From assembly GCF_002742265.1 (NCBI RefSeq), contig NZ_MDGL01000197.1, positions 1 to 45,267 of the forward strand: 45,267 bases of DNA, written 5' to 3'. Made by a program: the position numbers and the translations under genes. The notes under the pieces were generated by a model. The model was not told the origin of the DNA. It made no database searches and was given only the letters and a program-made list of their open reading frames with translations. Below are positions 6,083 to 40,032 of the stretch, one piece after another; position 1 is the stretch's first letter; each line of letters opens with the position of its first letter. Origin of the DNA: Maribacter sp. 4G9. Lineage in GTDB: Bacteria > Bacteroidota > Bacteroidia > Flavobacteriales > Flavobacteriaceae.

Positions 6083-6364
6083 ATGTATTTCTTTTGGCAA
6101 GGAATGCCCTACGTTGGCTTGTCCCTGGATAAAAAACGTAGAATACTGAACCTTACCGATGATTCAGAAAACCCTTTGGGAGCATGGAATCAAATGGTAA
6201 TTGAATGTCTCAATAATGAAATCAAAGTGTGGGAAAACGGCGATTTGGTCAATTACGGATATAACGCTACCGCCAGTAGTGGACAAATTGCCTTACAGGC
6301 AGAAGGTGCAGAAGTGGAATTTAGAAAAGTAGTTCTTACCCCCATACGTTCGTTTTCCGAGTAG
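6083..6364 (+). pseudogene. C-terminal remnant of a DUF1080 (3-keto-disaccharide hydrolase-type) protein
   Basis: The 93 residues match the last part of the DUF1080 concanavalin-like domain: NLTDDSENPLGAWNQMVIECL, then EIKVWENGDLVNYGYNAT and GQIALQAEGAEVEFRKV close to the end. The N-terminal half, signal peptide and an identifiable start are missing. The frame stays open leftwards for about 20 codons, including a partial echo of PYVG, then meets a stop. Intact relatives are exported proteins of about 200-250 residues, some of which cleave 3-keto-glycosides. This is a decayed gene, and an independent trace of oxidative glycoside metabolism at this locus. Confidence 0.7.
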
Positions 6365-15912: not shown

Positions 15913-15913
15913 C

Positions 15914-17719: not shown

Positions 17720-17738
17720 TCAATGATCTATCAAAATA

Positions 17739-17897: not shown

Positions 17898-17916
17898 TAA
17901 AAAGCAAAATTAGCTC

Positions 17917-18747: not shown

Positions 18748-18762
18748 TCTATTAAGGAAAAC

Positions 18763-18954: not shown

Positions 18955-19216
18955 CTGTTTAAAGGTTTGGTTCCTAGTAGGTCAATTTACAAATCTTTAA
19001 CATAATTAACAAATAATTAAGAAAAATATCCCGTGCTATATTGATGATTACTTCCGATGAAATGAATTTCTAGGATGAACGGACAGAATTTTTCGATGAA
19101 ATACCTAAAATTTTAAGAAAAAAGCCAAAAACCTGTGAAAACCTATTAATTTTTAATAAGTGTCTCGTGGTAAGCAATTGGGAACTTTGTCATGTTGAAC
19201 CCCAAAACCAAGTATT

Positions 19217-23835: not shown

Positions 23836-25323
23836 ATGTACTATTTAGGTTTGGATATTGGTAGTTCCTCAATAAAGATTGCATTGGTGGCATCCAACAC
23901 TGGCAAAAGTGTAGCCGTTGTTCAGGAGCCGGAGGTGGAAATGTCCATGCTGGCAATAAAAAATGGGTGGGCTGAGCAAAATCCGGAGGATTGGTGGGGC
24001 CATGCCTGCCATGGTATCAAAAGACTGATCAAAACGCACGGTATTTCTTCCGAAGAAATTATCGGGATAGGTATTTCCTATCAAATGCACGGGTTGGTGG
24101 TTGTGGACGCGGACCAAAAGGTGCTGCGCAATTCCATTATCTGGTGCGATAGCCGGGCTGTGCCAATCGGTCAGAAAGCCTTTGAAGAAATAGGGGAGGA
24201 AAAATGCTCGGAGTACTTATTGAATTCACCTTCCAATTTTACGGCCAGTAAATTAAAATGGGTAAAGGACAACGAGCCGGAAATTTTTGCAAAAATCCAT
24301 AAGTTCATGTTGCCTGGCGATTACATAGCCATGCGGTTTTCAGGAAAAATAAATACGACGGTATCCGGACTTTCAGAAGGTATTTTTTGGGACTTTAAGA
24401 AAAAGGATATCGCTTCTTTTTTGATGGACTATTACGGCTTGGATGCCAGTCTGGTCCCTGATATTGTGGAGACTTTCGGTATACAATCACGCGTTGATGC
24501 AAAAGGGGCTTCTGAAAGTGGTTTACAGGTTGGGACTCCAATTTTATACAGAGCTGGGGACCAACCCAACAATGCCTTGTCCTTAAATGTCTTTAATCCG
24601 GGCGAAGTAGCCGCTACTGGAGGTACCTCCGGAGTAGTTTATGCCGTTACCGATAGTCTTTCTGTCAAAGAAAGCGCCAGGGTAAATAACTTCGCGCACG
24701 TAAATTATACTCCCGGAAACGACTCAAGGATAGGAAAGCTACTTTGTATCAATGGCTCTGGGATTCAGTACCGATGGTTGCTTAATAATTTGGATGTAGC
24801 GTCCTATGACGAAATGAACAAACTGGCCGAAGAAGTTTCTGTAGGTTCTGATGGTGTGGTAATCATACCTTTTGGAAACGGTGCGGAACGGATGCTTAAT
24901 AATCAGGAAGTTGGTACGCGGCTGGTGAACATTAACTTGAACAACCATGGCAAGGGCCATTTGTGTAGGGCGGCTCTTGAGGGCATTGCCTTTTCATTTG
25001 TTTACGGGATGGAAATTATGGAATCTGACGGTATACGGGTCAATGTGATGCGGGCAGGAAACGACAACCTTTTTAGGTCGGATATTTTTTCTGAAACCGT
25101 AGCCACGCTCATTGGATATGATATTGAAATTTATAATACCACGGGTGCCATAGGAGCGGCTAGGGCAGGACTTTTACAGGATGGTGATTACCAAGTTTTT
25201 GGAAAGGCCATCATGGAAAACGATTACATATTGACATTTAAGCCTTTGGAGAATAAGGCAGAATACCAAAGGGCATATCAACTTTGGAAGAAGGAATTGG
25301 AAACAATAATAAACAACTTATAA
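23836..25323 (+). CDS. xylB: Xylulokinase
   Basis: A 495-residue FGGY-family sugar kinase that phosphorylates D-xylulose with ATP to xylulose 5-phosphate. The N-terminal phosphate-binding motif is [26 protein letters not shown] and [10 protein letters not shown] mark the substrate-binding domain, GDQPNNAL carries the catalytic aspartate, and the ATP-side motifs [10 protein letters not shown] and [11 protein letters not shown] follow. It is first in the xylB-xylA pair, 10 bp before xylA. The upstream region of about 200 bp has a TAACTTTA element near 23783. Length is normal. Specificity for xylulose is supported by the neighbouring isomerase gene. Confidence 0.95.
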
Positions 25324-25333
25324 AATAATTATA

Positions 25334-26650
25334 ATGGCGGACAAGCAGTATTTTAAAGGTATAGATACCATCAAGTTTGAAGGAAAGGATTCGGATAATC
25401 CTTTGGCGTTCAAATATTATAATCCGGATCAAGTGGTGGCGGGAAAAACCATGCGAGAGCATTTTAAGTTTGCCATAGCCTATTGGCATACCTTCTGTGG
25501 CCAAGGCTCCGATCCATTTGGACCTGGTACCCAGAATTTTGAGTGGGACCAATCTTCAGATCCGGTCCAGGCAGCAAAGGACAAGGCAGATGCGGCTTTC
25601 GAGTTTTTTGAGAAAATCGGTTTTGACTATTTCTGTTTTCATGATTTTGATCTTATTCAGGAGGGTCCCACGTTCTTGGAATCGGAAAAAAGATTGAATA
25701 CCATTGTAGACTACATCAAGGAAAAGCAGAAGGCTAGCGGCAAAAAATTACTTTGGGGAACGGCAAATTGCTTTTCAAATCCGCGCTATATGAATGGTGC
25801 GGCGACCAACCCTGAATTCAATGTAGTGGCAAGGGCAGGTGCGCAAATAAAAATGGCTTTGGACGCTACCATGGAACTCAATGGTGAAAACTACGTGTTC
25901 TGGGGCGGTAGGGAAGGTTATATGTCGCTTTTGAATTCCGATATGGGCCGCGAATTGGACCACATGGGGCAGTTCTTGATCATGTGCAGGGATTACGCCC
26001 GTGGGAAAGGATTTAAAGGGAATTTCTTTATAGAACCGAAGCCGATGGAACCCATGAAGCATCAATATGACTTTGATTCCGCAACTGCTATTGGTTTCCT
26101 ACGTGAATATGGATTGGAAAAGGATTTCAAGATCAATATAGAGGTAAACCATGCAACCTTGGCGCAACACACCTTCCAACATGAATTGGCCGTAGCAGGT
26201 AAGGCAGGTATGTTGGGAAGTTTGGATGCCAATAGGGGCGACTATCAAAATGGCTGGGACACGGACCAATTCCCCAACAACATTTTGGAAACGACCGAAG
26301 CCATGTTGGTATTCCTGGAGGCTGGAGGCCTTCAAGGGGGCGGTATAAATTTCGATGCCAAGATCAGGCGAAACTCCACGGATTTGGAAGATATATTCCT
26401 AGCCCATATTGGTGGTGCGGATACCTTTGCCCGTGCACTTTTGACTGCGGACAAAATAATAACTTCCTCTGCCTATTCAAGTTTGAGAAAAAAGAGGTAT
26501 AGTTCCTTCGATTCAGGAAAAGGGAAGGATTTTGAGAACGGTAAATTGGACCTGAACGATTTGTATGCCATTGCCAAGGAGAACGGAGAATTACCTTTAA
26601 TAAGCGGTAAGCAGGAGCTGTTTGAAAATATTATCAATCAGTATATATAA
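25334..26650 (+). CDS. xylA: Xylose isomerase
   Basis: A 438-residue class II xylose isomerase, which converts D-xylose to D-xylulose in the cytoplasm. Catalytic and metal-binding stretches are clear: FCFHDFDL (catalytic histidine), [11 protein letters not shown] (metal glutamate and lysine), [19 protein letters not shown] and [28 protein letters not shown] is a family hallmark. It follows xylB by 10 bp and ends before a strong terminator, so xylBA form a two-gene operon. This places D-xylose use, for example from xylan, among the abilities of the organism. Confidence 0.97.
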
Positions 26651-26668
26651 TTCAAGGAATTTTTAACA

Positions 26669-26702
26669 TAAAAAGGTCTTGATTTTGCTCAAGGCCTTTT
26701 TA
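26669..26702 (+). terminator. Terminator of the xylBA operon
   Basis: AAAAAGGTCTTGA and TCAAGGCCTTTTT form a 13-bp stem (one G-T pair) with loop TTTTGC and a T-tail. Confidence 0.9.
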
Positions 26703-26790
26703 GTTTAAAGTGAACTAACTCGGGGCTGGCTAGCGAGGCATTTAAGAAACATGTACTTAGTTTTTTAAGCATGCATCGTAGCATCCAAAC

Positions 26791-26803
26791 CTCGATTATC
26801 GAG
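26791..26803. promoter_or_regulatory. 13-bp palindrome immediately before the LacI-type gene, candidate operator
   Basis: CTCGATTATCGAG is a perfect palindrome about a central base and ends 2 bp before the start codon. LacI-family regulators bind such short palindromes, and this place would suit autoregulation. Confidence 0.5.
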
Positions 26804-26805
26804 TA

Positions 26806-27822
26806 ATGAAGAAGATTACCCTAAAGGACATAGCGCTATATTTTCACGTCTCTATTTCTACGGTGTCCAAGGCTGTTAACGACAGTCATGAGATAAGTAG
26901 GGAGTTAAAACAACGCATTCAGGAGTACGCAAAGGCGAATCATTACAAACCCAACAAGCTTGCCTTAAATCTTCTGAATCGTAGTACCAAGACCATTGGG
27001 GTCATTGTTCCCAATATCTTGAACTATTTTTTTGTTCAGGTTTTGTATGGTATTGAAAAGGTGGCCAATGAAAACGGCTATAATATTATCAGTTGTATAA
27101 GTGATGAATCCTATGAAAAGGAGTCTAAGACCTTGGAGTTTTTGGATTCCGGAACCGTAGATGGCTTGATCATTTCTTTGGCCGAGGAAACCCAGGTAAA
27201 GGAACGGATGGAAGGGCTCAGGGAAATCATGGAAAGTCAAATTCCTTTGGTGTTGTTCGATAGGGTTTCCGATCTAATTGACTGTGACAAGGTAATCGTG
27301 GACGATTTTGAAGCTGGGTATAAAACGACCAAATACTTTTTTAATCTTGGCTGCAAAAATGTCGCCTTCGTCTCTCCCATTGGCAACTCCAGTGTAGGCA
27401 AATTAAGGCTAGCAGGATATAAAAAAGCATTGGATGAGGCGGGAAGACCTTATGATGATAGGTTGGTAGTAAACTTTACCGCCAAGGATGATTTGGATTT
27501 GATCATGTCCTTCTTGTTAAATTATAAGACCATAGACGGAATCTTAGGTCTTGATGAAATCACCGCGGTGAAAATTCTGCATATCGTAAAATCCCGGGGC
27601 TATAATGTTCCCAAGGACGTTTCCATTGTTGGTTTTACCAATGGCCAATTATCGCAATACGTAACCCCGTCGTTGACCATGGTGAGTCAGCACGGGAAAT
27701 TCATAGGGGAAAAGGCCGCGGAATTATTAATAAAACGCATCCAAAACCCTGATATACCCTTCGAGACCAAAGTGGTAAAAACGAGCCTTTTGGTCAGGGA
27801 CTCCACAAAAAAGTTGCAATAG
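26806..27822 (+). CDS. LacI-family transcriptional regulator
   Basis: A 338-residue regulator. The HTH and hinge helix (KKITLKDIALYFHVSISTVSKAVN, then YKPNKLALNL, about 1-60) are followed by a periplasmic-binding-protein-like sensor domain that starts TKTIGVIVPNILNYFF and ends with the conserved STKKL-type tail. Family members usually repress catabolic genes until a sugar binds. It directly follows xylBA, though behind their terminator, so a xylose- or xyloside-responsive repressor is likely, but control of the sugar-oxidising genes to the right is also possible. Its stop abuts the stop of the convergent Gfo/Idh gene with no gap. Confidence 0.92.
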   Translation: MKKITLKDIALYFHVSISTVSKAVNDSHEISRELKQRIQEYAKANHYKPNKLALNLLNRSTKTIGVIVPNILNYFFVQVLYGIEKVANENGYNIISCISDESYEKESKTLEFLDSGTVDGLIISLAEETQVKERMEGLREIMESQIPLVLFDRVSDLIDCDKVIVDDFEAGYKTTKYFFNLGCKNVAFVSPIGNSSVGKLRLAGYKKALDEAGRPYDDRLVVNFTAKDDLDLIMSFLLNYKTIDGILGLDEITAVKILHIVKSRGYNVPKDVSIVGFTNGQLSQYVTPSLTMVSQHGKFIGEKAAELLIKRIQNPDIPFETKVVKTSLLVRDSTKKLQ

Positions 27823-29202
27823 CTATACCGTATCTGGATGTGGATGCTTCCATTCACCTCTATAGGCGCGCTGCAATTTATCGGTCGCCTCTTGGTCGTC
27901 CACCACAGACATGCTGCTTGGGTCATAAATCAATGGTCTCCCTAAATCCATGGAAAGATTGGCCAAAATACAGCTTGCCGTAGAAATATGACCTTCCTCA
28001 ATATCGGCAACAGGTCTGGTTCCATTGGCAATAGCTTCTAAAAAGTTGATCATATGCCGTCTTGTGGCGGGTGCTGCATTTAATTCATTGTCCTTTTCAA
28101 CCAAATCTTCTGGATACTTTTCTTTTTCAAAGAGAACATCAAAATGTACGGGTTCACCTTCTTTACCATAGGGAATAAAATCAGCCTTCATGGTACTTCC
28201 TTTTAAAACACCTTTTTCCCCATAAATGATAAAGGCCCAAGGGTATTCCGGATCCGCAGGATTTCCCCAACTTCGATGCTGCCATACGCAGTTTATGCCA
28301 TCGTATTCAAAAACGGCAGTTTGGGTGTCCGATATGTTTGACTTTCCATCTTTTTGTACATAAATACCTCCTTCGGAACTAATTCGTTTGGGCCATCCCA
28401 AGTCCAACATCCACCGAACGGTATCCAGCATATGGACACACATATCACCCATAATACCGTTACCATATTCCCTAAAGGTTCTCCACCACCTTCTGTGCGG
28501 AATTCCATCATAAGGTCGCCAAGGTGCAGGGCCTGTCCACATTTCATAATCCAAAAACTCAGGAACAGGTTGTACGGGAGGGTTTCCATTGGCCCGCATG
28601 TGATAATAACAGCACATTTCAACATGGCCTATTTTTCCCAATAGTCCTTTATCCACAATTTGTTTCTTGGCATCTATCAAATGTGGTGTGCTTTTTCGTT
28701 GGGTGCCAACTTGTACTACTTTGTTATATTTTCTAGCAGCGGCCACCATTGCTTCTCCTTCAATGACATCCACACTTATTGGTTTTTGAACATAGACATG
28801 TGCACCCGCCTTTATGGCATCTATACACATAAGGGCATGCCAGTGGTCAGGAGTTCCAATCAGTACAATATCCAGTTTTTCTTTTTTGAGCATTTCCCTG
28901 TAATCAGAGTATAACTTTGGGACTTTCCCGTTTTTTTGCCTCTGTGAAACCAATTCCCCAACTTCATTTAAAAAATTGGAATCCACATCACACAATGAAA
29001 CAACTTCTACGTTGGCGACCTGTATGAGTTTGAACAAATCACTGGTACCATACCAACCCGTTCCTATCAATGCCACTTTTTTTGGTTTTCCATTGGCAAA
29101 GAACTCAAATCCGTAACTACCCATGGATGTCAGAAGGAGGGAAGCGGCTGAGGCGCTTTTGATAAAATTTCTTCTCGCTAAAAATTGTTTATCGGTATTC
29201 AT
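27823..29202 (-). CDS. Tat-exported Gfo/Idh/MocA-family oxidoreductase
   Basis: A 459-residue protein with a twin-arginine signal (LARRNFIKSASAASLLL, about 8-24), Rossmann motif KKVALIGTGWYGTSD and the family sequence VYVQKPIS in place of the more usual EKP. The C-terminal domain includes MCCYYHMRANGNPP and NGIMGDMCVHMLDTVRWM. Such exported members are common near glycan-degradation genes in Bacteroidota and Planctomycetes; known relatives oxidise sugars or act in NAD-dependent glycoside cleavage. It is transcribed towards the LacI-type gene and divergently from the esterase gene, with a paired inverted repeat between them. It is only distantly similar to the copy at 3489. Confidence 0.88.
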   Translation of the reverse strand: MNTDKQFLARRNFIKSASAASLLLTSMGSYGFEFFANGKPKKVALIGTGWYGTSDLFKLIQVANVEVVSLCDVDSNFLNEVGELVSQRQKNGKVPKLYSDYREMLKKEKLDIVLIGTPDHWHALMCIDAIKAGAHVYVQKPISVDVIEGEAMVAAARKYNKVVQVGTQRKSTPHLIDAKKQIVDKGLLGKIGHVEMCCYYHMRANGNPPVQPVPEFLDYEMWTGPAPWRPYDGIPHRRWWRTFREYGNGIMGDMCVHMLDTVRWMLDLGWPKRISSEGGIYVQKDGKSNISDTQTAVFEYDGINCVWQHRSWGNPADPEYPWAFIIYGEKGVLKGSTMKADFIPYGKEGEPVHFDVLFEKEKYPEDLVEKDNELNAAPATRRHMINFLEAIANGTRPVADIEEGHISTASCILANLSMDLGRPLIYDPSSMSVVDDQEATDKLQRAYRGEWKHPHPDTV

Positions 29203-29248
29203 AATTAGTTGCTTAATAACATTATGGAGTGAAAAAGTTTTTCGTAAG

Positions 29249-29340
29249 TTATCAGTTTAAACTTATAAATTGTATCATGTTGGTATAAAAATAATCTGTA
29301 CATTATTAAATATTTATATTTGGGTGATTTAAACTGATAA
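29249..29340. promoter_or_regulatory. Paired 13-bp inverted repeats in a divergent promoter region
   Basis: TTATCAGTTTAAA at 29249-29261 is exactly complementary to TTTAAACTGATAA at 29328-29340, with 66 bp between. The left arm also contains the palindrome AGTTTAAACT. The two copies flank the gap between the Gfo/Idh start (29202) and the esterase start (29344). This looks like two operators for one regulator that controls both genes, possibly by looping. Confidence 0.55.
29315..29322 (+). promoter_or_regulatory. Bacteroidota-type -7 box for the SGNH esterase gene
   Basis: TATATTTG fits TAnnTTTG exactly and ends 21 bp before the ATG. The right operator-like repeat (29328-29340) lies where transcription would start, which suits repression. 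No clear -33 element. Confidence 0.5.
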
Positions 29341-29343
29341 ATT

Positions 29344-30720
29344 ATGAAGCACTTGTTTTTGGTATTGTTTCTGTTCTGTCTTACCGTTGTAAAGGCGGAA
29401 ATTTCCCTTCCCAAAATATTCTCCAGCAACATGGTCTTACAAAGGGAATCTTCCGTGGACCTTTTTGGATGGGCCCATCCCGGTGAGGAATTTACGATTA
29501 TTACGAGTTGGGTCTACCAAGAATATCCTGTAAAAACGCCCGTTACGGGAAAATGGAAATTATCCATAGAAACACCAGGCGCGGGTGGGCCTTACAACAT
29601 TGTTTTTAATGGCGGCTCAAACCAAATTGTTTTGGACAATATTTTAATGGGTGAAGTTTGGCTGTGCTCTGGACAATCCAATATGGAATGGAGCGCCAAC
29701 AGTGGTTTGGACAATAAGGAAGAGGCCATTGCAAAATCCGATAAACCAACGATTAGACTCTTTACCGTCGAAAAAAGAACATCGGAACATCCTCAGGACG
29801 ATTTGGTGGGAAAATGGGAGGTCTGTACACCGGAAACCATGCCGGATTTTAGCGCGGTCGCTTATTTTTTCGCCCAAAGAATGCAGGAAGAAATGGATGT
29901 GCCCATTGGCTTGATAGATTCTTCATGGGGTGCTTCCTGTGCCGAGGTGTGGACTCATTCGGAAGCATTCGAAAATAATCCCGCTTTGCAACAATCCTAC
30001 GAGCTTATTAAGCCCAACCCTTGGGTACCCATTGAAAAATCCATTTTATACAACGCTATGATAGCGCCTTTGACAAATTTTAAAATAAGTGGAACCTTAT
30101 GGTACCAAGGAGAGTCCAATACGGCCAATGCCGAAACCTATGAAAACACTTTTGGCACTTTGATAGAATCTTGGCGGACCCAATGGGGGTATGATTTCCC
30201 ATTTTATTACGTGCAGATAGCACCCTTTAAATACGGAAGGGAATATGAAGGGGGTATCGTTAGGGACCAACAAAGAAGAACCCTGTCCCTACCAAATACG
30301 GGCATGGCAATGACTAGTGATATTTGCACCATAGAGGATATCCATCCAAGAAATAAATTGGATGTGGGCATAAGATTGGGAAATATTGCCTTAAAACAAC
30401 ATTATAATAAAATAGATCAAGAAGTATATGGTCCTTTGTTTAAAGGAGCCGAAGTTGTAAAAAATAAAGTTGAGGTAACTTTTGAACATAACGAAGGCTT
30501 AAACATTAAAGGAAAGAACCTGGAGCACTTTGAAGTATTGGCATCGGATGGAAATTGGTATCCGGCCAAGGCAAAAATCAAGAATGGCAAAGTGACGGTA
30601 AGTTCAAAGGAAGTAAAAGAACCAAGGAAGGTAAGATATGCCTTTAAAAGTACGGACATTGCCAATTTATTCAATTCCGCGGGTTTGCCGGCTTCCACTT
30701 TTATAAGTGAAGAACTATAA
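29344..30720 (+). CDS. Exported SGNH carbohydrate esterase (sialate O-acetylesterase family)
   Basis: A 458-residue protein with signal peptide 1-17 (ending VVKA). The nucleophile block is WLCSGQSNMEW (S112), the oxyanion block is TLWYQGESN, and the catalytic Asp/His pair is D332/H334 in EDIHPRNK. This is the SASA/sialate-O-acetylesterase fold; many members next to xylan genes are acetyl-xylan or other sugar-ester esterases. A C-terminal beta-domain (about 360-458) follows. Release of acetyl groups from polysaccharides in the periplasm is likely; sialic acid itself is less likely because no sialic-acid genes are seen. It is divergent from the Gfo/Idh gene. Confidence 0.87.
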   Translation: MKHLFLVLFLFCLTVVKAEISLPKIFSSNMVLQRESSVDLFGWAHPGEEFTIITSWVYQEYPVKTPVTGKWKLSIETPGAGGPYNIVFNGGSNQIVLDNILMGEVWLCSGQSNMEWSANSGLDNKEEAIAKSDKPTIRLFTVEKRTSEHPQDDLVGKWEVCTPETMPDFSAVAYFFAQRMQEEMDVPIGLIDSSWGASCAEVWTHSEAFENNPALQQSYELIKPNPWVPIEKSILYNAMIAPLTNFKISGTLWYQGESNTANAETYENTFGTLIESWRTQWGYDFPFYYVQIAPFKYGREYEGGIVRDQQRRTLSLPNTGMAMTSDICTIEDIHPRNKLDVGIRLGNIALKQHYNKIDQEVYGPLFKGAEVVKNKVEVTFEHNEGLNIKGKNLEHFEVLASDGNWYPAKAKIKNGKVTVSSKEVKEPRKVRYAFKSTDIANLFNSAGLPASTFISEEL

Positions 30721-30864
30721 TTAAATAATTTTTAAAGTATACGATAATTCGGGTATTGGCATACTTCAACACCATGATTCATGAATTTGTGAATTCCTAT
30801 GGGTTGAATGTCCAATAATTTTTGAATTAATTTTTAAATTGTACCATAAACCAAAGACCAAATT

Positions 30865-32586
30865 ATGCAGATAAAAGAATCCTCCGAAGTGTATGATGTT
30901 ATTATTGTAGGCTCAGGAGCTGGTGGCGGAATGGCTACCAAACAGTTAGCGGATGCGGGCTTGAATGTGGCCGTAGTAGAAGCAGGTCCGTTCTTTGATC
31001 CGGCGGACCCTAAAACCATGACCCAATTAAAATGGCCTTATGATTCTCCTCGTAGGGGAGCAGGCACGGATAGGGCTTTTGGCGAATGGGATCAGTCTTG
31101 GGGAGATTGGGAAGTAGAAGGTGAACCTTACACTCATGAAGAAGGGACAGATTTCAAATGGTGGAGAGCCAGAATGCTCGGTGGACGTACCAATCACTGG
31201 GGGCGTATTTCACTTCGATTTGGACCCAAGGATTTTAAAGGCAAATCCAGGGATGGTCTTGGTGACGATTGGCCTATAGGCTATGAGGATATTAAACCAT
31301 ATTACGATAAGTTGGATAAACTGATCGGGGTTTTTGGGACTAAGGAAGGTAGGGAAAATGATCCGGACGGATTTTTTCTTCCACCTCCTAAACCAAGATT
31401 GCACGAATTATTCTATATCAATGGAGCCAAAAAGACAGGAATCCCTGTAATACCTGGAAGGTTGTCCATGTTGACCAAAAGAATCAATAATGAGCGTGGC
31501 GTCTGTTTTTATTGTGGTCAATGTGGTCGTTCCTGTCAGGTCTATGCCGATTTCTCCGCAGGAAGCTGCTTAATTTTCCCAGCGCAGAAGAATGGTGGAA
31601 AGGTTAAGCTGTTTGTCAATTGTATGGTGAGAGAGGTTACCACGAATGAAGAAGGTAAAGCTACTGGGGTATCCTACATCAATAAAGAGGATAGAAAGGA
31701 ATATAAGTTAAAGGGTAAGGTCGTCGTTTTGGGAGCTTCCGCCTGTAGTTCCGCACGAATTTTATTGAATAGCAAAAGTAAACAACACCCAAATGGATTG
31801 GGCAATAGCAGTGATGTCGTTGGAAGATATTTGCATGATTCCACAGGTGCCAGTGCTTCTGGGGTCATTCCAGGTTTATTGAACCGGAAAACGTCCTATA
31901 ATGAAGATGGCGTGGGAGGTATGCACGTCTATTCTCCCTGGTGGGGCGATAATTCCAAATTGGATTTCCCAAGAGGATACCATATCGAAGTTTGGGGCGG
32001 AATGGGTCAGCCGAACTATGGTTTTGGATTTGACCCCAATGGCATGAACAAGTTCTTTGGGCTTAAAGTGGGCGGATATGGAGATAGTTTACGAGATGAT
32101 GTAAAGAAATATTATGGATCGGTTATTGGCTTTGGTGGCCGTGGAGAAGCTATTGCCTTTAGGGAAAACCGATGCGAAATTGATCCAACAACTGTAGACA
32201 AATACGGTATTCCGGTCTTGAAGTTCAATTACAAACATTCACAGTATGAAATCAATCAGGCCAAGCACATGCAGGATACCTTTGAAGAACTTATACATAA
32301 TATGGGAGGTATACCTTTAAGTGAAAAACCTGGAAAGGACCAAAACTATGGATTGTTGGCCCCCGGACAGATTATTCATGAGGTGGGAACGACCCGAATG
32401 GGAGATGACCCAAAGACTTCCGTGACCAACAAATACCAACAGTTACACGACTGTGATAATGTGTTCATAGTGGATGCAGGGCCTTTTGTTTCCCAAGCGG
32501 ACAAGAACTGTACCTGGACCATTATGGCCTTGTCTTGGAGGGCATCGGACTATATCATTGATCAATTGAAGAAACAAAATATTTAA
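30865..32586 (+). CDS. GMC-family FAD-dependent sugar dehydrogenase with a four-cysteine motif
   Basis: A 573-residue GMC oxidoreductase. The FAD-binding motif is DVIIVGSGAGGGMATKQLADAG (positions 11-32), then RMLGGRTNHW, and the C-terminal block HEVGTTRMGDD and NCTWTIMALSWRASDYI. C214, C217, C220 and C224 (CFYCGQCGRSC) resemble an iron-sulfur site; FAD-glucose dehydrogenases of this group carry a 3Fe-4S cluster near that position. Such enzymes oxidise a sugar hydroxyl, in related hexoside dehydrogenases at C3, and pass electrons to a small subunit and a cytochrome. No signal peptide is visible, so export with the Tat-type partner subunit encoded just downstream is likely, as known for gluconate and fructose dehydrogenases. 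Confidence 0.9.
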   Translation: MQIKESSEVYDVIIVGSGAGGGMATKQLADAGLNVAVVEAGPFFDPADPKTMTQLKWPYDSPRRGAGTDRAFGEWDQSWGDWEVEGEPYTHEEGTDFKWWRARMLGGRTNHWGRISLRFGPKDFKGKSRDGLGDDWPIGYEDIKPYYDKLDKLIGVFGTKEGRENDPDGFFLPPPKPRLHELFYINGAKKTGIPVIPGRLSMLTKRINNERGVCFYCGQCGRSCQVYADFSAGSCLIFPAQKNGGKVKLFVNCMVREVTTNEEGKATGVSYINKEDRKEYKLKGKVVVLGASACSSARILLNSKSKQHPNGLGNSSDVVGRYLHDSTGASASGVIPGLLNRKTSYNEDGVGGMHVYSPWWGDNSKLDFPRGYHIEVWGGMGQPNYGFGFDPNGMNKFFGLKVGGYGDSLRDDVKKYYGSVIGFGGRGEAIAFRENRCEIDPTTVDKYGIPVLKFNYKHSQYEINQAKHMQDTFEELIHNMGGIPLSEKPGKDQNYGLLAPGQIIHEVGTTRMGDDPKTSVTNKYQQLHDCDNVFIVDAGPFVSQADKNCTWTIMALSWRASDYIIDQLKKQNI

Positions 32587-32590
32587 GAGG

Positions 32591-33313
32591 ATGGATAGAA
32601 GAAAAAGTTTACAGACCTTACTACTTGGAGGGGCCGCAGCTGGTTCTGGTTTGGTTTTCAATGCATGTAAATCGGAAAATACGGAAATCATTGACCAGGC
32701 CATTACGGAAAGCAGCGATAAATATTTTGGAAGGACACCCGCAGAGCTGGAGCGCTTGGAAAAGCTTCAGGCAGAGCAATTGTTCAACGAACATGAAATG
32801 GAGACTATTGCTGCCTTAAGCGTAGTGATACTTCCCCCAAAAGAACCCCATGGCGGGCCTATTGAGGCCGGCGTGCCGGACTTGGTGGAATTTATGGGCA
32901 AGGATATCCCTGAAATGGCTCCCACACTTTTGGGAGGTCTGATGTGGCTGGACCATAAAAGCAATACCGAGTTTGGAACCGAATTTAAATCGGCAACCTT
33001 GGAACAAAAAAAACAGATCTGTGATGCCATTTGTTGGCATGATACGGAGATACCTTTGGACGAGCAACCTTTGGAAATCCAGTTCTTCTACATGATGCGT
33101 GGCTTAACCGTAACGGGCTACTATACTTCAAAAGTGGGAATAGAAGATTTAGGCTACAAGGGCAACCAGCCCAATGTATGGGATGGGGTTCCCCAAGATG
33201 TATTGGATCAGCACGGCGTGGCCTACGACCCAGAATGGATAGCGAAATGCGTGGACCAAAGCAAACGAAATGTCATCGCAGAATGGGACGATGAAGGCAA
33301 TCTACTCACGTAA
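32591..33313 (+). CDS. Gluconate 2-dehydrogenase subunit 3-like protein (Tat lipoprotein)
   Basis: A 240-residue partner of the GMC dehydrogenase. It begins with a twin-arginine-type signal (DRRKSLQTLLLGGAAAGSG) and a lipobox (LVFNAC, cysteine at about 27). The body fits the gluconate 2-dehydrogenase subunit 3 family, with ETIAALSVVILPP as a hallmark. It probably carries the FAD subunit across the inner membrane in folded form and anchors it at the membrane. It starts 4 bp after the GMC stop, and the sugar isomerase/epimerase gene follows 10 bp later, so all three are one operon. Confidence 0.9.
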   Translation: MDRRKSLQTLLLGGAAAGSGLVFNACKSENTEIIDQAITESSDKYFGRTPAELERLEKLQAEQLFNEHEMETIAALSVVILPPKEPHGGPIEAGVPDLVEFMGKDIPEMAPTLLGGLMWLDHKSNTEFGTEFKSATLEQKKQICDAICWHDTEIPLDEQPLEIQFFYMMRGLTVTGYYTSKVGIEDLGYKGNQPNVWDGVPQDVLDQHGVAYDPEWIAKCVDQSKRNVIAEWDDEGNLLT

Positions 33314-33323
33314 ATAAAAGAAT

Positions 33324-34142
33324 ATGAAAAAGTATCTTACGCTACTGGTAATTGGGTGTTTAGCTATCACTACGAATGCTCAGGAAGTCGGGTTGCAATT
33401 GTATAGTTTAAGGAACCAATTCAAAGACGATGTCCCAAGAACTTTGAAGCTTATCAATTCTTGGGGTATTTCAAAAATTGAAGGAGGTGGTACCTATGGG
33501 ATGCCCATGGAAGACTTTCAAAAGCTTATGAAAGACAACGGATTACAGGTAGTTAGCGTAGGTTCGGATTTTAATGATTTGGAAAACAATGTGGAAAAAG
33601 TCATACAGAACGCCAAGGATTTTGGTGCTAAATATGTGATGTGCGCATGGGTTCCCCATGATGGAAATAATTGGGGATTGGAAGAAACCATACATGCCAC
33701 GGATATTTTCAATAGTGCCGGAAAGCGATTGAAGGAAGAAGGGCTTACTTTGGCCTATCATGCCCACGGGTATGAATTCAGGCCCTATGAAGAGGCTACT
33801 TTCTTTGATTATATGGCCAAAAATGCCACGGACTTCACTTTTGAGCTTGATGTATATTGGGCAAAACATGGTGGCGCGGATCCCGTGGCCCTAATGAAAA
33901 AATATCCCGGTAAGATGACCTTATTGCATTTAAAGGACATGGAGCATGGGGTAAAGGGTAACAATACAGGCCATGAAGATGTGGAGACAAATGTGGTTTT
34001 GGGCACTGGTCAGGTGGATATTGCTGGCGTTGTTGCCGAAGCTAAGAAACTTGGTTTGGAGTATATGTTCATTGAGGATGAATCAAGCCGAGTAGTGGAA
34101 CAGGTTCCAGAAAGTTTAGAGTATTTGAAAAGTTTAAAGTAG
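33324..34142 (+). CDS. Exported sugar phosphate isomerase/epimerase-family (xylose-isomerase-like TIM barrel) protein
   Basis: A 272-residue protein with a signal peptide (1-19, ending TNAQ), then an AP-endonuclease-2-type TIM barrel (VGLQLYSLRNQF, YVMCAWVP, LAYHAHGYEFRP, ELDVYWAKHGG, LLHLKDM, and FIEDE at the end). The metal-binding Glu, His and Asp residues of the family appear in these segments. Export means that it cannot act on cytoplasmic sugar phosphates; related exported proteins act on keto-sugars or keto-glycosides. It is third in the operon with the GMC pair, which supports a role on the oxidised product. A terminator follows. Confidence 0.85.
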   Translation: MKKYLTLLVIGCLAITTNAQEVGLQLYSLRNQFKDDVPRTLKLINSWGISKIEGGGTYGMPMEDFQKLMKDNGLQVVSVGSDFNDLENNVEKVIQNAKDFGAKYVMCAWVPHDGNNWGLEETIHATDIFNSAGKRLKEEGLTLAYHAHGYEFRPYEEATFFDYMAKNATDFTFELDVYWAKHGGADPVALMKKYPGKMTLLHLKDMEHGVKGNNTGHEDVETNVVLGTGQVDIAGVVAEAKKLGLEYMFIEDESSRVVEQVPESLEYLKSLK

Positions 34143-34164
34143 TTCAAAATTGATAGATTGATTT

Positions 34165-34198
34165 AAAGCCGTTCAATGGAAAGTTTGAACGGCTTTTT
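34165..34198 (+). terminator. Terminator of the GMC-isomerase operon
   Basis: AAAGCCGTTCAA and TTGAACGGCTTT form a 12-bp stem, followed by TTG and a T-run. It overlaps the 5' end of the open frame of the next gene, which supports placing that gene's start downstream at 34242. Confidence 0.9.
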
Positions 34199-34241
34199 GT
34201 TTATAAATACCATATATTTATGGGAACATCTTTTAAATTTT

Positions 34242-35867
34242 ATGTCTCCTAAATATCTGATTTCTGGATTAGTAGCTTTTTTCCTGTTTGGTTGTACCAA
34301 TAAGGAAAAGGAAGGCCAAAATATGGGTTCCCAAGATTTACCCAATATTGTTTGGTTGGTGGCGGAGGATCAATCTCCTGAATGGTTTCCCATGTATGGG
34401 GATTCCACGATTCCCTTGCCTAATTTGGAATCCCTTGCAGCCGATGGGGTGGTCTTTACCAATGCGGTAGCACCGGTTCCTGTGTGTGCCCCAGCCAGAA
34501 GTGCCATTATTACGGGCATGTATCCTACGACCTTGGGAACTCATAATATGAGAACGCATAAACCTTGGGCGCCGATCAATGAACCGTTATTGGACAGTCT
34601 GCCCAGTTACTCCCCAGTAGTTCCGGAAGGAGTTAAAATGTTTACGGAATACCTACGGAAAATAGGATATTACACGTCCAATGGCCCCAAAGAGGATTAT
34701 AATTTTGAAAAGACGGATGCGGCTTGGGATGAAAGTAGCAATAAGGCCCATTGGAGAAAACTGAAAAGGGACCAGCCATTTTTTGCCGTCTTCAATTATT
34801 CGGTTTGTCATGAGTCCCAAATTTGGGCCAGGGGCAAGGATTCCCTTTTTGTCGACCCAAATGCATTGAAAGTGCCACCCTACTTTCCGGATACCGATGT
34901 GGTACGTCATGACTTGGCCGTTAACTACAGCAATCTCAAAAGATTGGATAATCAGGCGGGAAAAATTTTAGACCAATTAAAGGAGGACGAACTTTATGAA
35001 AACACGATCATTTTCTTTTACGGGGACCATGGAGGACCCTTTCCACGTCATAAAAGGGCATTGTACGATACTGGGGTAAAAGTGCCTTTGATCATTAAAT
35101 TCCCTAAAAATAAAAATGCGGGTAGCTATGATGATCGTTTGATAAGTTTTATAGATTATGCCCCAACACTACTTTCGCTAGCAGGTATTGAACCGCCCAA
35201 GGTGATGCAGGGCGTGGCACAATTTGGGAAGTATGAGGTCAAAAGGAAACCCAAATATACGTTCCATACTTCGGATAGATTCGATGAGATTTATGACCGT
35301 TTAAGGGCGGTCCGTAGCAAGCGTTTCAAATATATCAAAAGCTATAACACCCAATTGAGTCATGCCTTACCAGTTTCGTATCGGGAGCAAATGCCTATGA
35401 TGCAAGAATTACGGAAACTATTTGATGCCGATAAATTAAACGAAGAGCAAGCGGCTTGGTTACAACCGAATAAACCTGAGGAAGAACTGTACGATTTGCA
35501 AAAAGATCCATACGAATTGAACAACCTGGCGGACCGTCCCGAAATGAAGGACACCCTAGTTTTTTATCGCAATATTTTGACCGACTGGATAAAGGATACC
35601 AAGGATTTAGGAGGGGTTCCTGAGCGCGACTTAATCAGAAACTGGCTTCCTAATGGAGAGATACAAAAATTACCGGCCTTGGAAGTTGAGGTACAGGATT
35701 CCGTAATCGAATTAATTTCACCTAAAAGGGATGCTACGATTGTTTGGAAAAGCCCGAAGGATTCCATTTGGAACGTCTACACACAGCCTTTGCCAACAGG
35801 AATGCCCATAGAAGCCAAGGCAGAACGAATTGGATATCAGGATAGTGAAATAATCAGTTTGGAATAG
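34242..35867 (+). CDS. Sulfatase (S1 family), lipoprotein, N-sulfoglucosamine sulfohydrolase-like
   Basis: The open frame extends up to 34176, inside a terminator, so ATG 34242 (MSPKYLISGLVAFFLFGC) is the likely start; it yields a lipoprotein signal with the lipobox cysteine near residue 18. The 541-residue product has the type I sulfatase signature CAPAR, with C82 as the residue to be converted to formylglycine, then metal ligands in GDHGGPF. NIVWLVAEDQSP opens the domain. The pattern resembles S1_8-type (heparan N-sulfatase-like) enzymes rather than classical arylsulfatases, but the substrate is uncertain. The needed maturase is not in this window. It is followed by a convergent gene. Confidence 0.9.
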   Translation: MSPKYLISGLVAFFLFGCTNKEKEGQNMGSQDLPNIVWLVAEDQSPEWFPMYGDSTIPLPNLESLAADGVVFTNAVAPVPVCAPARSAIITGMYPTTLGTHNMRTHKPWAPINEPLLDSLPSYSPVVPEGVKMFTEYLRKIGYYTSNGPKEDYNFEKTDAAWDESSNKAHWRKLKRDQPFFAVFNYSVCHESQIWARGKDSLFVDPNALKVPPYFPDTDVVRHDLAVNYSNLKRLDNQAGKILDQLKEDELYENTIIFFYGDHGGPFPRHKRALYDTGVKVPLIIKFPKNKNAGSYDDRLISFIDYAPTLLSLAGIEPPKVMQGVAQFGKYEVKRKPKYTFHTSDRFDEIYDRLRAVRSKRFKYIKSYNTQLSHALPVSYREQMPMMQELRKLFDADKLNEEQAAWLQPNKPEEELYDLQKDPYELNNLADRPEMKDTLVFYRNILTDWIKDTKDLGGVPERDLIRNWLPNGEIQKLPALEVEVQDSVIELISPKRDATIVWKSPKDSIWNVYTQPLPTGMPIEAKAERIGYQDSEIISLE

Positions 35868-35935
35868 AGGTTTTTACCTTAATTGGTACAAGTCTAGAAA
35901 GGAAAATATACCATAATCCATTCTTTTCGACCATA

Positions 35936-36949
35936 TTAATAAAGCCCAGCTTTCTGTAATGCCGAGCTAAGGACCAAAACAGAACTTTCAAAACTCTTTT
36001 TCAATAAGGTATCAACATCCATGGATTCCCAATAGCCCTTATTGAAAAGCTCTACCGAAAATGCACCTCTAAAACCGGCTTCATAAAGCTTTGGGACCAC
36101 ATAGTCAAAAGGACAAACCCCTTCTCCGGGTAGAACACGGTCTGCATCGGTCAATTTGTCGTACGTAGGTTCTGCCGGATAATCGTTCATGTGCATCACA
36201 GGTAATTTGGCCCCATTGAGCACATCAACGGTGTCCCAAGAGTTTCCACCTCGGTGTACGTGATAAAAATCCAAAAGTATGGAAGCTTTAGGGTGACCGG
36301 TTGCTATGACTATTTGTGCACAGTCCGAAATTTTACGAAGGGCACCCATGCCCCAAAGTTCAAGTACGGGAATGACACCCGTTTCTTCTTCCAAATCTAG
36401 GATAGCCTTATATCGGTCTGCATATTCCTGCATTTTTGATGGTTCCAGTCTTGAAAGTCCCATTATGGGGGCAGCGATATGGCTTCCACCCAAATCCTTG
36501 ATGATATTCATTTCCTCTCGGAGTTGATTGATGGCCTTTTCCCTTTTTTCGGGTTCATCGCTACACCATTCCGAAAAACCGATGATATTTTCCAGTTTAA
36601 GATTTCCCTCCTCTAACTTCCTTTTTAAGGATTCTGTACTTCCTCCTTGCTCTAGATAGGTCATGATGTCCCGCATCCAAAGTTCAATACCGTCGAACCC
36701 TGCTGCTGCAACCTTTTCAATTTGCACATCAACCGGTAACTTATAAGCCATTAGAGTTGAAGTATTTAGGCTTATCCTAAAGGGTAGCGTATGGGTTTGT
36801 TCCTCGGTTTTCAAAATGGATTTAGGTGCCTTTGTGAATCCCAAAGCCATACCCGATGTAGCCGAAACAGCAAATAAGGTTCCTGTTTTTAATAGGTTTC
36901 TTCGAGAAATATTTTTTGTTGACATATTTGGTGTATTAAGGGGTTGCAA
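35936..36949 (-). CDS. Tat-exported sugar phosphate isomerase/epimerase-family protein
   Basis: A 337-residue TIM-barrel protein with a twin-arginine signal (ISRRNLLKTGTLFAVSATSG). The start may be at 36949 (MQPL) or at codon 9 (MSTKNISRRN, 36925); the latter puts the twin arginines closer to the N-terminus. The barrel includes GFDGIELWMRDI, EEMNIIKDLGGSHIAAP, VLELWGMGA, LLDFYHVHRGG and LPGEGVCPFDYVVP. It lacks close similarity to the exported family member at 33324, so the two probably have different substrates. It lies 15 bp after the second sulfatase gene, in one operon. Confidence 0.85.
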   Translation of the reverse strand: MQPLNTPNMSTKNISRRNLLKTGTLFAVSATSGMALGFTKAPKSILKTEEQTHTLPFRISLNTSTLMAYKLPVDVQIEKVAAAGFDGIELWMRDIMTYLEQGGSTESLKRKLEEGNLKLENIIGFSEWCSDEPEKREKAINQLREEMNIIKDLGGSHIAAPIMGLSRLEPSKMQEYADRYKAILDLEEETGVIPVLELWGMGALRKISDCAQIVIATGHPKASILLDFYHVHRGGNSWDTVDVLNGAKLPVMHMNDYPAEPTYDKLTDADRVLPGEGVCPFDYVVPKLYEAGFRGAFSVELFNKGYWESMDVDTLLKKSFESSVLVLSSALQKAGLY

Positions 36950-36964
36950 AATATGAAAAAGGAA

Positions 36965-38740
36965 TCAGTCCACGCGCTCAAATTGTAGTAGACGGACCTC
37001 AGGGCCGTTACTTTTCATTTGGTTTGCCTTTAAAACAAGGGGTGTTCTTTTGGCATCAAGACTAATTATTCCCATATCTACGGGTTTAAAATCCTTAATG
37101 TAGGATTCCATGCGCACTACCCGGTCGTTTTCCATGCCTTCTAGCGGTGGGTCATGTGCCGTATCCAGTGTTTTGGTGAGGCTGTTTTTTCCTTGGCTTA
37201 AAATGAGCTCGATTCCCTCATTTTCATTCTTTAAGGTGTAATAGAGGGTTACCCTGTACTTTCCTTTTTGCAATACGTCCACATCCCAAAAAATGGAATC
37301 ATTGGCCTGGGTCCATTGGGTGAAAAAGGTGTTATTGGGAAAACGGTTACTGCGCTTTATTTTACCCGATGGAACTCCATCACGTGCAGGCAATTGGGTA
37401 AATTTGTACTTGGGATGTCCCAAGGTAAAAGGACGGGTATCCGATGTATTGGTTAACCGTGGGTATCGGGTCAACCACTTTTCCCGTTCTCGTATTAACG
37501 AGTCTTGCAGTCCTTGCAATTTATCCGAAACTTCTTGTTTTTGTTCAGGATCGCTATTCATTTCAAATAATCTGTCCTCATTGTCCAAGCGAAAATCTTG
37601 TGTCCTGAGACTGGTACGTCCTTCCCAATGGTTATAAATAATTCGGTCTTCAAAAGGAGCACTCGGGTCCTGAATCAAGGGAGCTAAATTTTTTCCATCC
37701 ATCTCCAAATCATTTTTCGGAATTTCCAAAAGACCAAGCAGGGTAGGGGTTATATCAATAGCTCCCCCAATGGTCTGTACCTCTGTTCCCATTTTTATGT
37801 GATCTTTCCATTGAATGAAAAAGGGTGCTTTGACGCCTCCTTCATCGGTAGAACCTTTTTTTCCTCGCATACCTCCATTCCATCGCCAGCCATTGGGTCC
37901 GTTGTCCGAAAGATAGATTACTATAGTATTTTCTTCTAAATCCAATCTTTCCAAGCTCTCTAGAATACGGCCTACATTATCATCGATATTTTCTACCATG
38001 GCCAAGGCCGCACGTGTAAACGGCAGATTTTCTTCCTCCGGATTTTGGTACATCATCTTTAGCTCTTTGTCCTTGAACTTGTTCCAATACCTATCCGGTA
38101 CTTGCATAGGACTATGAGGTGTATTGAATGGGAGATAAATAAAAAAAGGTCCCTCTTTGTAATCTTCCATAAATTGAATGGTGTGGTCGGTAAGGTCATC
38201 CGCTAAAAAACCGCTACCCTTAACGAGTTCGCCGTTGTGCTCCAATAGGGGACTAAAATAGTTGCCCCAGTGGCCCGAGGCGAATCCGTAGAACTCATCG
38301 AAACCTCTGGTATTGGGATGATAGGGAGGTTGCATACCGTTGTGCCATTTTCCAAAAGCAGCGGTTTGGTATCCATTGTCCTGGAGAATTTCCGCTATCG
38401 TTGGTACGCTAAAGTCCATGCGCTCCCCACCTGCAGAGGTACCATGCACGCCGAGACGGGTAAAATATTTTCCAGTTAATAGTTCGGCCCTGGTAGGGGA
38501 ACATACAGGTTGAACAAAGAAATTGGTAAACGACACCCCATTTTTGGCGATGCCATCGATATTTGGCGTGCTTAGATTCGTATTTCCATGAAAACTAAGG
38601 TCTCCCCATCCTTGATCATCGGCCATGATTAGCACAATGTTCGGTTTAACTTCATCATTTTTTTTTGCCTCTTGAATCTGTTCTTTGCAGGACCCTAAAA
38701 GTCCGAAACAGAAATACCAAATAATAATAATTGGACGCAT
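36965..38740 (-). CDS. Sulfatase (S1 family, arylsulfatase-like) with C-terminal beta-domain
   Basis: A 591-residue lipoprotein-like exported sulfatase: signal with lipobox cysteine near residue 18 (LLGSC), NIVLIMADDQGWGDL opening the alkaline-phosphatase fold, and CSPTR with C80 as the formylglycine precursor. GKWHNGMQPPYHP, HSPMQVPDRYW and IYLSDNGPNGW complete the active site. After about residue 430 a further beta-sandwich-like region (WDVDVLQKGKYRVTLYYT) may bind carbohydrate. Sulfatases of this type act on sulfated marine glycans or exolytically on sulfated sugars; the subfamily is not certain. First gene of the sulfatase-isomerase operon. Confidence 0.9.
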   Translation of the reverse strand: MRPIIIIWYFCFGLLGSCKEQIQEAKKNDEVKPNIVLIMADDQGWGDLSFHGNTNLSTPNIDGIAKNGVSFTNFFVQPVCSPTRAELLTGKYFTRLGVHGTSAGGERMDFSVPTIAEILQDNGYQTAAFGKWHNGMQPPYHPNTRGFDEFYGFASGHWGNYFSPLLEHNGELVKGSGFLADDLTDHTIQFMEDYKEGPFFIYLPFNTPHSPMQVPDRYWNKFKDKELKMMYQNPEEENLPFTRAALAMVENIDDNVGRILESLERLDLEENTIVIYLSDNGPNGWRWNGGMRGKKGSTDEGGVKAPFFIQWKDHIKMGTEVQTIGGAIDITPTLLGLLEIPKNDLEMDGKNLAPLIQDPSAPFEDRIIYNHWEGRTSLRTQDFRLDNEDRLFEMNSDPEQKQEVSDKLQGLQDSLIREREKWLTRYPRLTNTSDTRPFTLGHPKYKFTQLPARDGVPSGKIKRSNRFPNNTFFTQWTQANDSIFWDVDVLQKGKYRVTLYYTLKNENEGIELILSQGKNSLTKTLDTAHDPPLEGMENDRVVRMESYIKDFKPVDMGIISLDAKRTPLVLKANQMKSNGPEVRLLQFERVD

Positions 38741-38913: not shown

Positions 38914-40032
38914 TCACTTAATCGCTAATCCCACCATGGAATCGGCTGTTCCATAATATAAAAACCATTGGTCCTTAAAATAGACCAATCCTTGAATAAA
39001 AGTTGTCCCGGCCTTATATTGTCCGCTTACTTCATGGGGTAGACTTGGGCAAATAAAAGGGGTTTCCAGTCTGGAAATCATTTTGGATGGATTATCCTTG
39101 TCGAACAAGACTTGTCCGCCGCAGTAGGTGCCTTCCGGATATTTATCCGTTGCACCTTCCCCAGATAGGTTTTTCCCATTATATAACAATAGAATTCCAT
39201 TTTCCGTGTATAGCGCCGGAGGCCCCGGTTCCGTTAAATGGCTATCAAACTCGTTTAAAGTGGGTATAAAAACATGGAGCAGCTCCCCGTTTTCTTTCAG
39301 TAAGGGAGTCCAGTCGATTCCGTTTTCACTTTCTGCCAGGTTTACAAAAAGTTCCCCCCAATACATGAGGTATTTACCATTGAATTTTTTGGCAATCAAT
39401 CGGCCATCCGTCAATTCGGTAACCACGGAACCGGATTTACTCCAGATATCCAAGAATTTACCATCATAGGCTTTTTGAAAAATGGGCCCGTGGTTGGTCC
39501 AAGTTTTCAAGTCCTTTGAGGAAGCAACAGACAATCTTGCCACATCTTGGTTCCAACTGGTATAGTACATCAAGTAAGTGCCATCAGGGGTTTCAATAAT
39601 CCTGGGATCTTCCATTCCTCCTGGGTAATCCCATTCTTTGAATTCATCATCTTGTGGAAAAAAAACGGGTTCCGGATATTTGGTAAAGTCGATTCCGTTG
39701 GTGCTATAAGCCAAGCCTATCCGGGAAGTGCGCCCCCCGAGAATGGCATCGGGATTGTCCTCTGCCCTAAAAAGAAGGAAAACGGTATCGTTTCTAACAA
39801 TGGCACCCGGATTGAATACATCGGCTTTTTGCCATCGGACTTCATTACGGGTAATTGGGTCGATAAACGTATAGGTGGAATCTGGAACCATAATCGGATT
39901 TTTATCGGTCTTTTCAAAACCTAGCATCCATTTGGATACGGGTTCCGGTTCCTCTTGTTTAGTTTCGGTGGTTTTGTTTTTACAACAGGTTAGTAAAGTA
40001 AGCAGTACCACGGCGAGAATTCTTGAAGACAT
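38914..40032 (-). CDS. Lipoprotein glycosidase, GH130-like
   Basis: A 372-residue protein with a lipoprotein signal (LLTLLTCCKNK; lipobox cysteine near 16). The five-bladed beta-propeller resembles family GH130: FNPGAIVRNDTVFLLFRAED near the start, GMEDPRIIETPDGTYLMYYT with the EDPR motif whose aspartate is the catalytic acid, and the C-terminal hallmark LYYGTADSMVGLAI. GH130 enzymes are mannoside phosphorylases or hydrolases acting mostly on beta-mannosides. Export as a lipoprotein speaks for a hydrolase or another role, as phosphorolysis is normally cytoplasmic. It lies near the sulfatase gene on the same strand, with a 173-bp gap, and is divergent from the VanX-type gene. Confidence 0.82.
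   Translation of the reverse strand: MSSRILAVVLLTLLTCCKNKTTETKQEEPEPVSKWMLGFEKTDKNPIMVPDSTYTFIDPITRNEVRWQKADVFNPGAIVRNDTVFLLFRAEDNPDAILGGRTSRIGLAYSTNGIDFTKYPEPVFFPQDDEFKEWDYPGGMEDPRIIETPDGTYLMYYTSWNQDVARLSVASSKDLKTWTNHGPIFQKAYDGKFLDIWSKSGSVVTELTDGRLIAKKFNGKYLMYWGELFVNLAESENGIDWTPLLKENGELLHVFIPTLNEFDSHLTEPGPPALYTENGILLLYNGKNLSGEGATDKYPEGTYCGGQVLFDKDNPSKMISRLETPFICPSLPHEVSGQYKAGTTFIQGLVYFKDQWFLYYGTADSMVGLAIK

Follow-up and report, generated by a model that had tools for sequence, protein, structure and literature searches.

A candidate periplasmic oxidation-elimination operon beside an S1_8-like sulfatase in Maribacter sp. 4G9

The breakdown of marine sulfated polysaccharides is usually attributed to sulfatases acting together with glycoside hydrolases or uronate lyases. 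In the account given of the GlycDH-AtOGE-AtHYD-Gfo operon of Agrobacterium tumefaciens (PMC10628242), AtOGE and AtHYD act as a lyase-hydratase pair, and the eliminase takes the C2 proton of its substrate, a step that the C2 hydroxyl is proposed to assist by hydrogen bonding. Here we analyzed a 45,267-nt stretch of DNA from Maribacter sp. 4G9 (contig NZ_MDGL01000197.1, positions 1 to 45,267; “the window”), in which the genes of a GMC dehydrogenase, a Gluconate_2-dh3 small subunit (subunit 3) and an exported TIM barrel (TIM1) form an operon. We consider it likely that this operon is a periplasmic oxidation-elimination module that cleaves glycosidic bonds and that is coupled, in the Maribacter/Zobellia group, to an S1_8-like sulfatase (sulfatase 1). 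Its parts are known, and the combination is new.

The operon and its predicted chemistry

The operon (30865-34142) had been proposed, together with a terminator, in a first-pass annotation made from the sequence, and both were found again: the three genes are separated by gaps of 4 nt and 10 nt, and a 12-pair hairpin lies 3′ of the TIM barrel gene (Table 1). The hairpin has the longest stem (runner-up 7 pairs) among 11 terminator-like sites in 27700-37100, a region for which shuffles gave a mean of 10.1 sites. The annotation had also named the gene order in relatives as a check. We inspected the best 80 of 583 loci found with genes up to 10 kb on either side, a near set that leans to close relatives and in which several loci reach contig ends, and the order is conserved: the GMC and subunit 3 genes are side by side in 76 of the 80 loci, and the GMC-subunit 3-TIM series is present in 57. 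The adjacency of the operon genes is beyond chance. Gene calls were the longest open reading frames (ORFs) of at least 110 residues in near loci and at least 100 in distant loci, with no annotation pipeline; the ORF list of the window held those of at least 150 residues in 1-20000 and at least 100 in 20000-45267.

TIM1, labeled an isomerase/epimerase in the first-pass annotation, is a xylose-isomerase-like barrel whose closest sequence relatives are the 3-keto-glucopyranoside lyases (E 1.7e-20; 32% identity, compared to 18% for IolE). Its residues H146, H148, D176, H202 and E251 align with H132, H134, D163, H189 and E233 of AtOGE, and the metal ligands and catalytic histidine are conserved among TIM1 orthologues; judged from the alignment, the active site is complete for an eliminase. 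The predicted structure agrees with the sequence as to fold and active-site residues. In eight loci TIM1 is replaced by a fused double barrel of 528-531 residues (L051, 12467-14050; L036, L037, L041, L044, L045, L048 and L054), and five further loci that have sulfatase 1 carry a tandem pair of barrels. The second barrel retains HxH and HxKD in all 13 of these cases, and in the fused proteins both halves do. By analogy with AtOGE and AtHYD, the fused form is possibly a lyase-hydratase pair.

The GMC protein contains the four-cysteine motif that had been noticed before, C214-X2-C217-X2-C220-X3-C224, and H111 is a histidine of the flavin adenine dinucleotide (FAD)-linking type. C214, C220, C224 and H111 align with C212, C218, C222 and His105 of Burkholderia cepacia GDH (BcGDH), and H505 and N548 presumably form the catalytic pair, as in the GMC family. 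Because the predicted model has a pLDDT (predicted local distance difference test) below 50 at 218-223, the cysteine loop, and at 105-113, around the FAD histidine, the cluster type is read from the sequence, which indicates that it is probably [4Fe-4S]. Subunit 3 begins with MDRRKSLQ and has a lipobox-like VFNAC; in 81 of 84 sequences, two adjacent arginines are found among the first 12 residues. It is thus a predicted carrier (“hitchhiker”) and anchor for the GMC protein. As to a heme c subunit beside the GMC gene, none of the 13 PF13442 matches in the genome lies on contig C196, this being the one heme family searched there. A multiheme-cytochrome-c-like gene, whose product is a candidate electron acceptor, immediately precedes the GMC-subunit 3 pair at one locus (L077:8676-9833), and its family recurs in five further loci. 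Six Arenibacter loci (L065, L067, L069, L070, L072 and L075) contain tandem GMC-subunit 3 duplicates, 76-77% and 83-84% identical to the window GMC protein.

In the best named locus, that of Maribacter flavus, the GMC protein is 99% identical to ours. Among 392 Bacteroidota genomes (three candidates scored per genome for the GMC protein and for sulfatase 1), its subfamily, taken at E 1e-100, occurs in 103, mostly in single copy and never below 55% identity. The paralogues in the Maribacter genome itself are just 33-35% identical and have no fourth cysteine, and the GMC protein therefore stands apart as an enzyme that changes slowly. TIM1-like proteins (E 1e-40) occur in 35 of the genomes, 32 of which also have the GMC protein (Fisher 1.5e-17; kinship is ignored in this test and in the neighbor expectations below). 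The two are side by side in only five of the 35, all from the family of the window (this genome, G130, G134, G234 and G304).

A more distant set comprised 39 loci with GMC proteins 56-79% identical to that of the window; it goes back to 40 regions hand-picked from the 103 genomes with a match, less one (L174) that lacked a GMC ORF. Members of DUF1080, the family of 3-keto-disaccharide hydrolases, are encoded in the 19-kb stretch at 10 of these loci, where DUF1080 counts and genome sizes would predict 1.3, a result reached in 0 of 200,000 simulations; in the near set the family is found at 3 of 80 loci. A Pseudoalteromonas plasmid, with a second, identical record, has Gfo/Idh, TIM, MFS, DUF1080, GMC, subunit 3 and TIM genes in a single run, and the last barrel matches TIM1 (26.5% identity, E about 1e-21, HNH in place). 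The GMC type is thereby linked to 3-keto-glycoside chemistry without recourse to the TIM1 of the window, and it is chiefly on this ground that the oxidation is assigned to C3. Taken with the active site of TIM1, the link of the GMC type to DUF1080 makes oxidation followed by elimination, the route proposed at the outset, well supported as the chemistry of the operon. Elsewhere in the Maribacter genome, contig C148 (L104:4443-17082) has a fuller cluster of 3-keto type, with two DUF1080 genes, two GMC paralogues, one subunit 3, three TIM barrels, a Gfo/Idh gene and a transporter.

The proposed sequence of events would be as follows. The Tat signal of subunit 3 would carry the GMC protein into the periplasm, where the latter would oxidize a hydroxyl of the sugar at the non-reducing end, most likely at C3. 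Electrons would pass from FAD to the Fe-S cluster and on to a respiratory cytochrome encoded elsewhere. TIM1, using a divalent metal with H148 acting as the base, would abstract the proton at C2 of the 3-keto-glycoside and expel the aglycone or the remaining chain. The product, a 2-hydroxy-3-keto-glycal, may be hydrated by the same or by a second barrel, and the keto-sugar could be reduced by the Gfo/Idh enzyme. In the Maribacter/Zobellia group, the S1_8-like lipoprotein sulfatase would first strip the 2-O-sulfate that adjoins the carbon to be deprotonated.

Sulfatase 1 and the competing explanations

Characterised S1_8 enzymes, as far as the account in PMC12549532 goes, act on the 2-O-sulfate of galactose or xylose or on N-sulfoglucosamine. 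All five top PDB matches of sulfatase 1 are S1_8 enzymes (from E 2e-79, 9bbd), the next-best being at 5e-30, and CXPXR is present in 32 of 32 orthologues. The ORF list starts the gene at 34176; this start overlaps the hairpin, and since the lipoprotein-like signal begins at 34242, the latter is the more likely start. A 2-sulfate would obstruct an eliminase that removes the C2 proton and is proposed to be helped in this by the C2 hydroxyl, which would give the pairing a chemical rationale.

Sulfatase 1 is present in 31 of the 80 near loci and is always next in the chain, 30 times after the barrel and once directly after subunit 3. With the window included, it lies within 350 bp of the chain in 31 of 32 loci (L080 has a gap of 502 bp), and the gap can be as small as -4 bp (L056, L058 and L084), 7 bp (L059), 12 bp (L047) or 15 bp (L010 and L017). 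Among the 18 loci judged by eye for intervening hairpins, the hairpin is of similar sequence in the window, L006 and L008 and of different sequence in L009, L028, L049, L050 and L052. The GMC tree shows 14 switches between presence and absence of the gene, with its position always the same, and across the 392 genomes its matches of at least 56% identity are found only beside the GMC gene (this genome, G134 and G375). A sulfatase is found at 13 of 19 near loci, where 3.0 were expected; the 19 genomes were hand-chosen out of the 80 loci, and in both sets, the first-look candidate number was taken as the count for genomes with more than 32 sulfatase candidates.

The first-pass annotation had paired the operon with both sulfatases of the window and had proposed sulfated or acylated glycosides as substrates. 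Of this, the link to sulfatase 1 is supported, the gene lying directly downstream of the operon and in several loci being part of it; sulfatase 2 and the esterase are variable neighbors. Several observations weigh against the coupling. In the window, the terminator divides the operon from sulfatase 1, and 27 of the 57 loci with the full operon lack this sulfatase. In phylogenetically independent pairs, sulfatase 1 and TIM go in the same direction, but not significantly. In the more distant loci sulfatases are not enriched (3 of 39, 2.2 expected), and the idea that this GMC type is generally linked to sulfatases was accordingly rejected outside the marine group. We regard a sulfated substrate as plausible.

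These points bear on a second explanation, in which the operon is a general, broad-specificity module for plain glucosides and galactosides and the sulfatases are interchangeable island neighbors that act on other molecules. The GMC protein is strongly conserved (at least 55% identity in 103 of 392 genomes) but its neighbors vary, with DUF1080 at 10 of 39 distant loci and sulfatase 1 at 31 of 80 near ones, and LacABC dehydrogenases are described as oxidizing lactose, salicin and other plain glycosides (PMC9007349). Against it, sulfatase 1 comes and goes 14 times on the tree and still, wherever present, directly follows the operon, sometimes overlapping it by 4 bp, and the excess of sulfatases in the near loci argues likewise; we consider this explanation unlikely. 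Far less probable is that the GMC protein is a fructose-, glucose- or gluconate-type sugar or sugar-acid dehydrogenase that feeds respiration, next to an unrelated IolE/IolI-like epimerase or dehydratase. Fructose and glucose are indeed the substrates of the closest solved relatives of the GMC protein, but TIM1 is nearest to the lyases and retains every eliminase residue, the PDB sequence search returned IolI for the second barrel of the window (TIM2) and neither IolI nor IolE for TIM1, and the GMC type is enriched near 3-keto-disaccharide hydrolases.

A more far-reaching form of the oxidation-elimination proposal is that of a dedicated route for 2-O-sulfated glycans that works without a glycoside hydrolase. 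An exo-2-O-sulfatase of S1_8 type would free the terminal O2, the Tat-exported [4Fe-4S] GMC protein would oxidize C3 and the periplasmic lyase would cleave; in eight relatives the lyase would be the fused double barrel, possibly lyase plus hydratase. This route would have replaced the DUF1080 branch in Maribacter/Zobellia, and a similar sulfatase coupling would have arisen separately in Catenovulum, with the other GMC type. We put it forward only tentatively. On a plasmid of the gammaproteobacterium Catenovulum adriaticum (NZ_CP109966.1; L181, 2019-13395), genes for a TIM barrel, a heme-binding CxxCH protein, DUF1080, GMC, subunit 3, a sulfatase and GH43 follow one another. This GMC protein is of the other type (59.5% identical to a paralogue in the Maribacter genome), and the sulfatase has CNSSR instead of CXPXR; we count it as a separate case of 3-keto genes adjoining a sulfatase. 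We found no literature report linking 3-keto-glycoside cleavage to sulfatases in marine Flavobacteria, which, given thin coverage of subscription journals, is weak evidence of absence. With a sulfatase as its next gene in many close relatives, the operon suggests a digestion route for sulfated algal sugars. If the pairing of a 2-O-sulfatase with oxidation-elimination is real, it would permit sulfated sugars to be removed without a hydrolase, a route that could be recognized in genomes without matching hydrolases.

Other genes in the window

The surroundings listed in the first-pass annotation were all recovered (Table 1). The Gfo/Idh protein scores 155.4 bits against the profile of BT_2158-type glycoside 3-dehydrogenases (NF058561), under the equivalog cut-off of 750. 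TIM2 has a sole HxH, at 230, in a context unlike that of TIM1 (not aligned), and has no BLAST match to TIM1; as it is also rare near the operon, it was dropped as the pathway's second barrel (hydratase). The GH130 protein is a variable neighbor (20 of 80 near loci). The DUF1080 remnant is real, but as a fragment 24 kb from the operon it means little, and with DUF1080 so infrequent in near loci it was rejected as a pathway member. The reported absence of SusC/SusD stood in part: the largest listed ORF does not exceed 622 residues and hence no SusC-sized gene is present in the window, where SusD was not tested by profile, but relatives do carry these genes.

On one strand, 23836-27822 encodes a xylulokinase (by eye) and a xylose isomerase (profile match), with a LacI-type regulator just upstream; these genes were dropped as a clue to xylose-2-sulfate, as xylA occurs in 19 of 80 loci, often without sulfatase 1. 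A D-Ala-D-Ala-dipeptidase (VanX)-like gene (named by eye; 40180-40902) is near the GMC gene in 44 of 80 loci, more than either sulfatase. At 4859-5836, a formylglycine-generating-enzyme-like protein (by eye) adjoins a second Tat-type Gfo/Idh protein (3489-4835).

Table 1. Positions and properties of the operon, its terminator and neighboring features in the window.
Feature	Position	Strand	Remarks
DUF1080 (PF06439) remnant	6137..6334	+	profile positions 111-185 of 187; outside operon
Gfo/Idh/MocA protein	27823..29202	-	Tat-type signal; related to 8tdf/8tdh; candidate partner redox enzyme
SASA-type carbohydrate O-acetylesterase-like protein	29344..30720	+	variable neighbor, 30/80 loci
GMC dehydrogenase large subunit	30865..32586	+	573 residues; Pfam GMC_oxred_N/C; no signal peptide by eye
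Gluconate_2-dh3 (PF13618) small subunit (subunit 3)	32591..33313	+	Pfam 95.5 bits, cut-off 23.4; Tat-type signal, lipobox
TIM1, Sec-type exported TIM barrel	33324..34142	+	predicted 3-keto-glycoside 1,2-lyase; Pfam AP_endonuc_2
Intrinsic-terminator-like hairpin	34165..34196	+	12 pairs, T-rich tail, 22 nt past TIM1 stop; between operon and sulfatase 1
Sulfatase 1, lipoprotein-like, S1_8-like	34242..35867	+	CAPAR active-site motif, at 104 of listed ORF
TIM2, second Tat TIM barrel	35936..36949	-	rare neighbor, 4/80 loci
Sulfatase 2	36965..38740	-	CSPTR motif; closest PDB relatives are carrageenan sulfatases, S1_19 kind; 33/80 loci
GH130 protein	38914..40032	-	near BT3780 beta-1,2-mannosidase profile NF058598, 488.9 bits, cut-off 550 not reached

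Comparison with described systems

Like the Agrobacterium GlycDH operon as described (PMC10628242), the Maribacter operon would combine a flavoenzyme glycoside dehydrogenase with a sugar-phosphate-isomerase-like β-eliminase, and TIM1 shares the metal site and catalytic histidine of AtOGE. In TIM1 and in gene order, the features compared here, the two differ: TIM1 has an export signal, the Gfo/Idh gene is separate and on the opposite strand, and the operon holds a single eliminase-type barrel with a sulfatase next to it. Neither of the two Rhizobiaceae GMC matches inspected lies at the GlycDH operon.

The 3-keto-β-glucopyranoside-1,2-lyases AL1 of Alistipes and BT1 of B. thetaiotaomicron (8tcd, 8tcr and 8tct) rank, at 30-32% identity, with the top matches of TIM1 in sequence and in structure. 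The Gfo/Idh neighbor matches 8tdf/8tdh, which are close in PDB numbering to these lyase entries and which we take to be from the same study. Unlike in the AL1/BT1 systems, the first oxidation here is most likely made by the GMC/Fe-S complex and not by a Gfo/Idh enzyme.

In the LacABC-DUF1080 systems of Caulobacter and Bacteroidetes, as reported in PMC9007349, a periplasmic multi-subunit dehydrogenase likewise feeds an enzyme that cleaves 3-keto-glycosides; the likeness is one of organization, the LacA sequence not having been compared. In the Maribacter window, in contrast, a cytochrome gene was not found beside the operon, there is no intact DUF1080 gene and the cleaving enzyme would be a lyase-type TIM barrel. 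Two GMC paralogues of the same genome do adjoin DUF1080, on contig C148. Sulfatase 1 is nearest to S1_8A/B/C, the S1_8 sulfatases of the lambda-carrageenan pathway as given in PMC12549532, although no carrageenase was recognised among the profiled neighbors.

With the DET-type FAD dehydrogenases, namely BcGDH (PMC6719666) and Gluconobacter fructose dehydrogenase, the GMC protein shares the fold, the hitchhiker subunit, three Fe-S cysteines and the covalent-FAD histidine. Unlike these enzymes, as far as they are described there, it carries a fourth cysteine within the cluster loop and lacks a counterpart of BcGDH Cys213, and no cytochrome gene was found adjoining. In this subfamily the [3Fe-4S] loop of biosensor-type dehydrogenases thus appears, by sequence, to have gained the cysteine needed for [4Fe-4S], which would make it a natural experiment in electron-transfer tuning.

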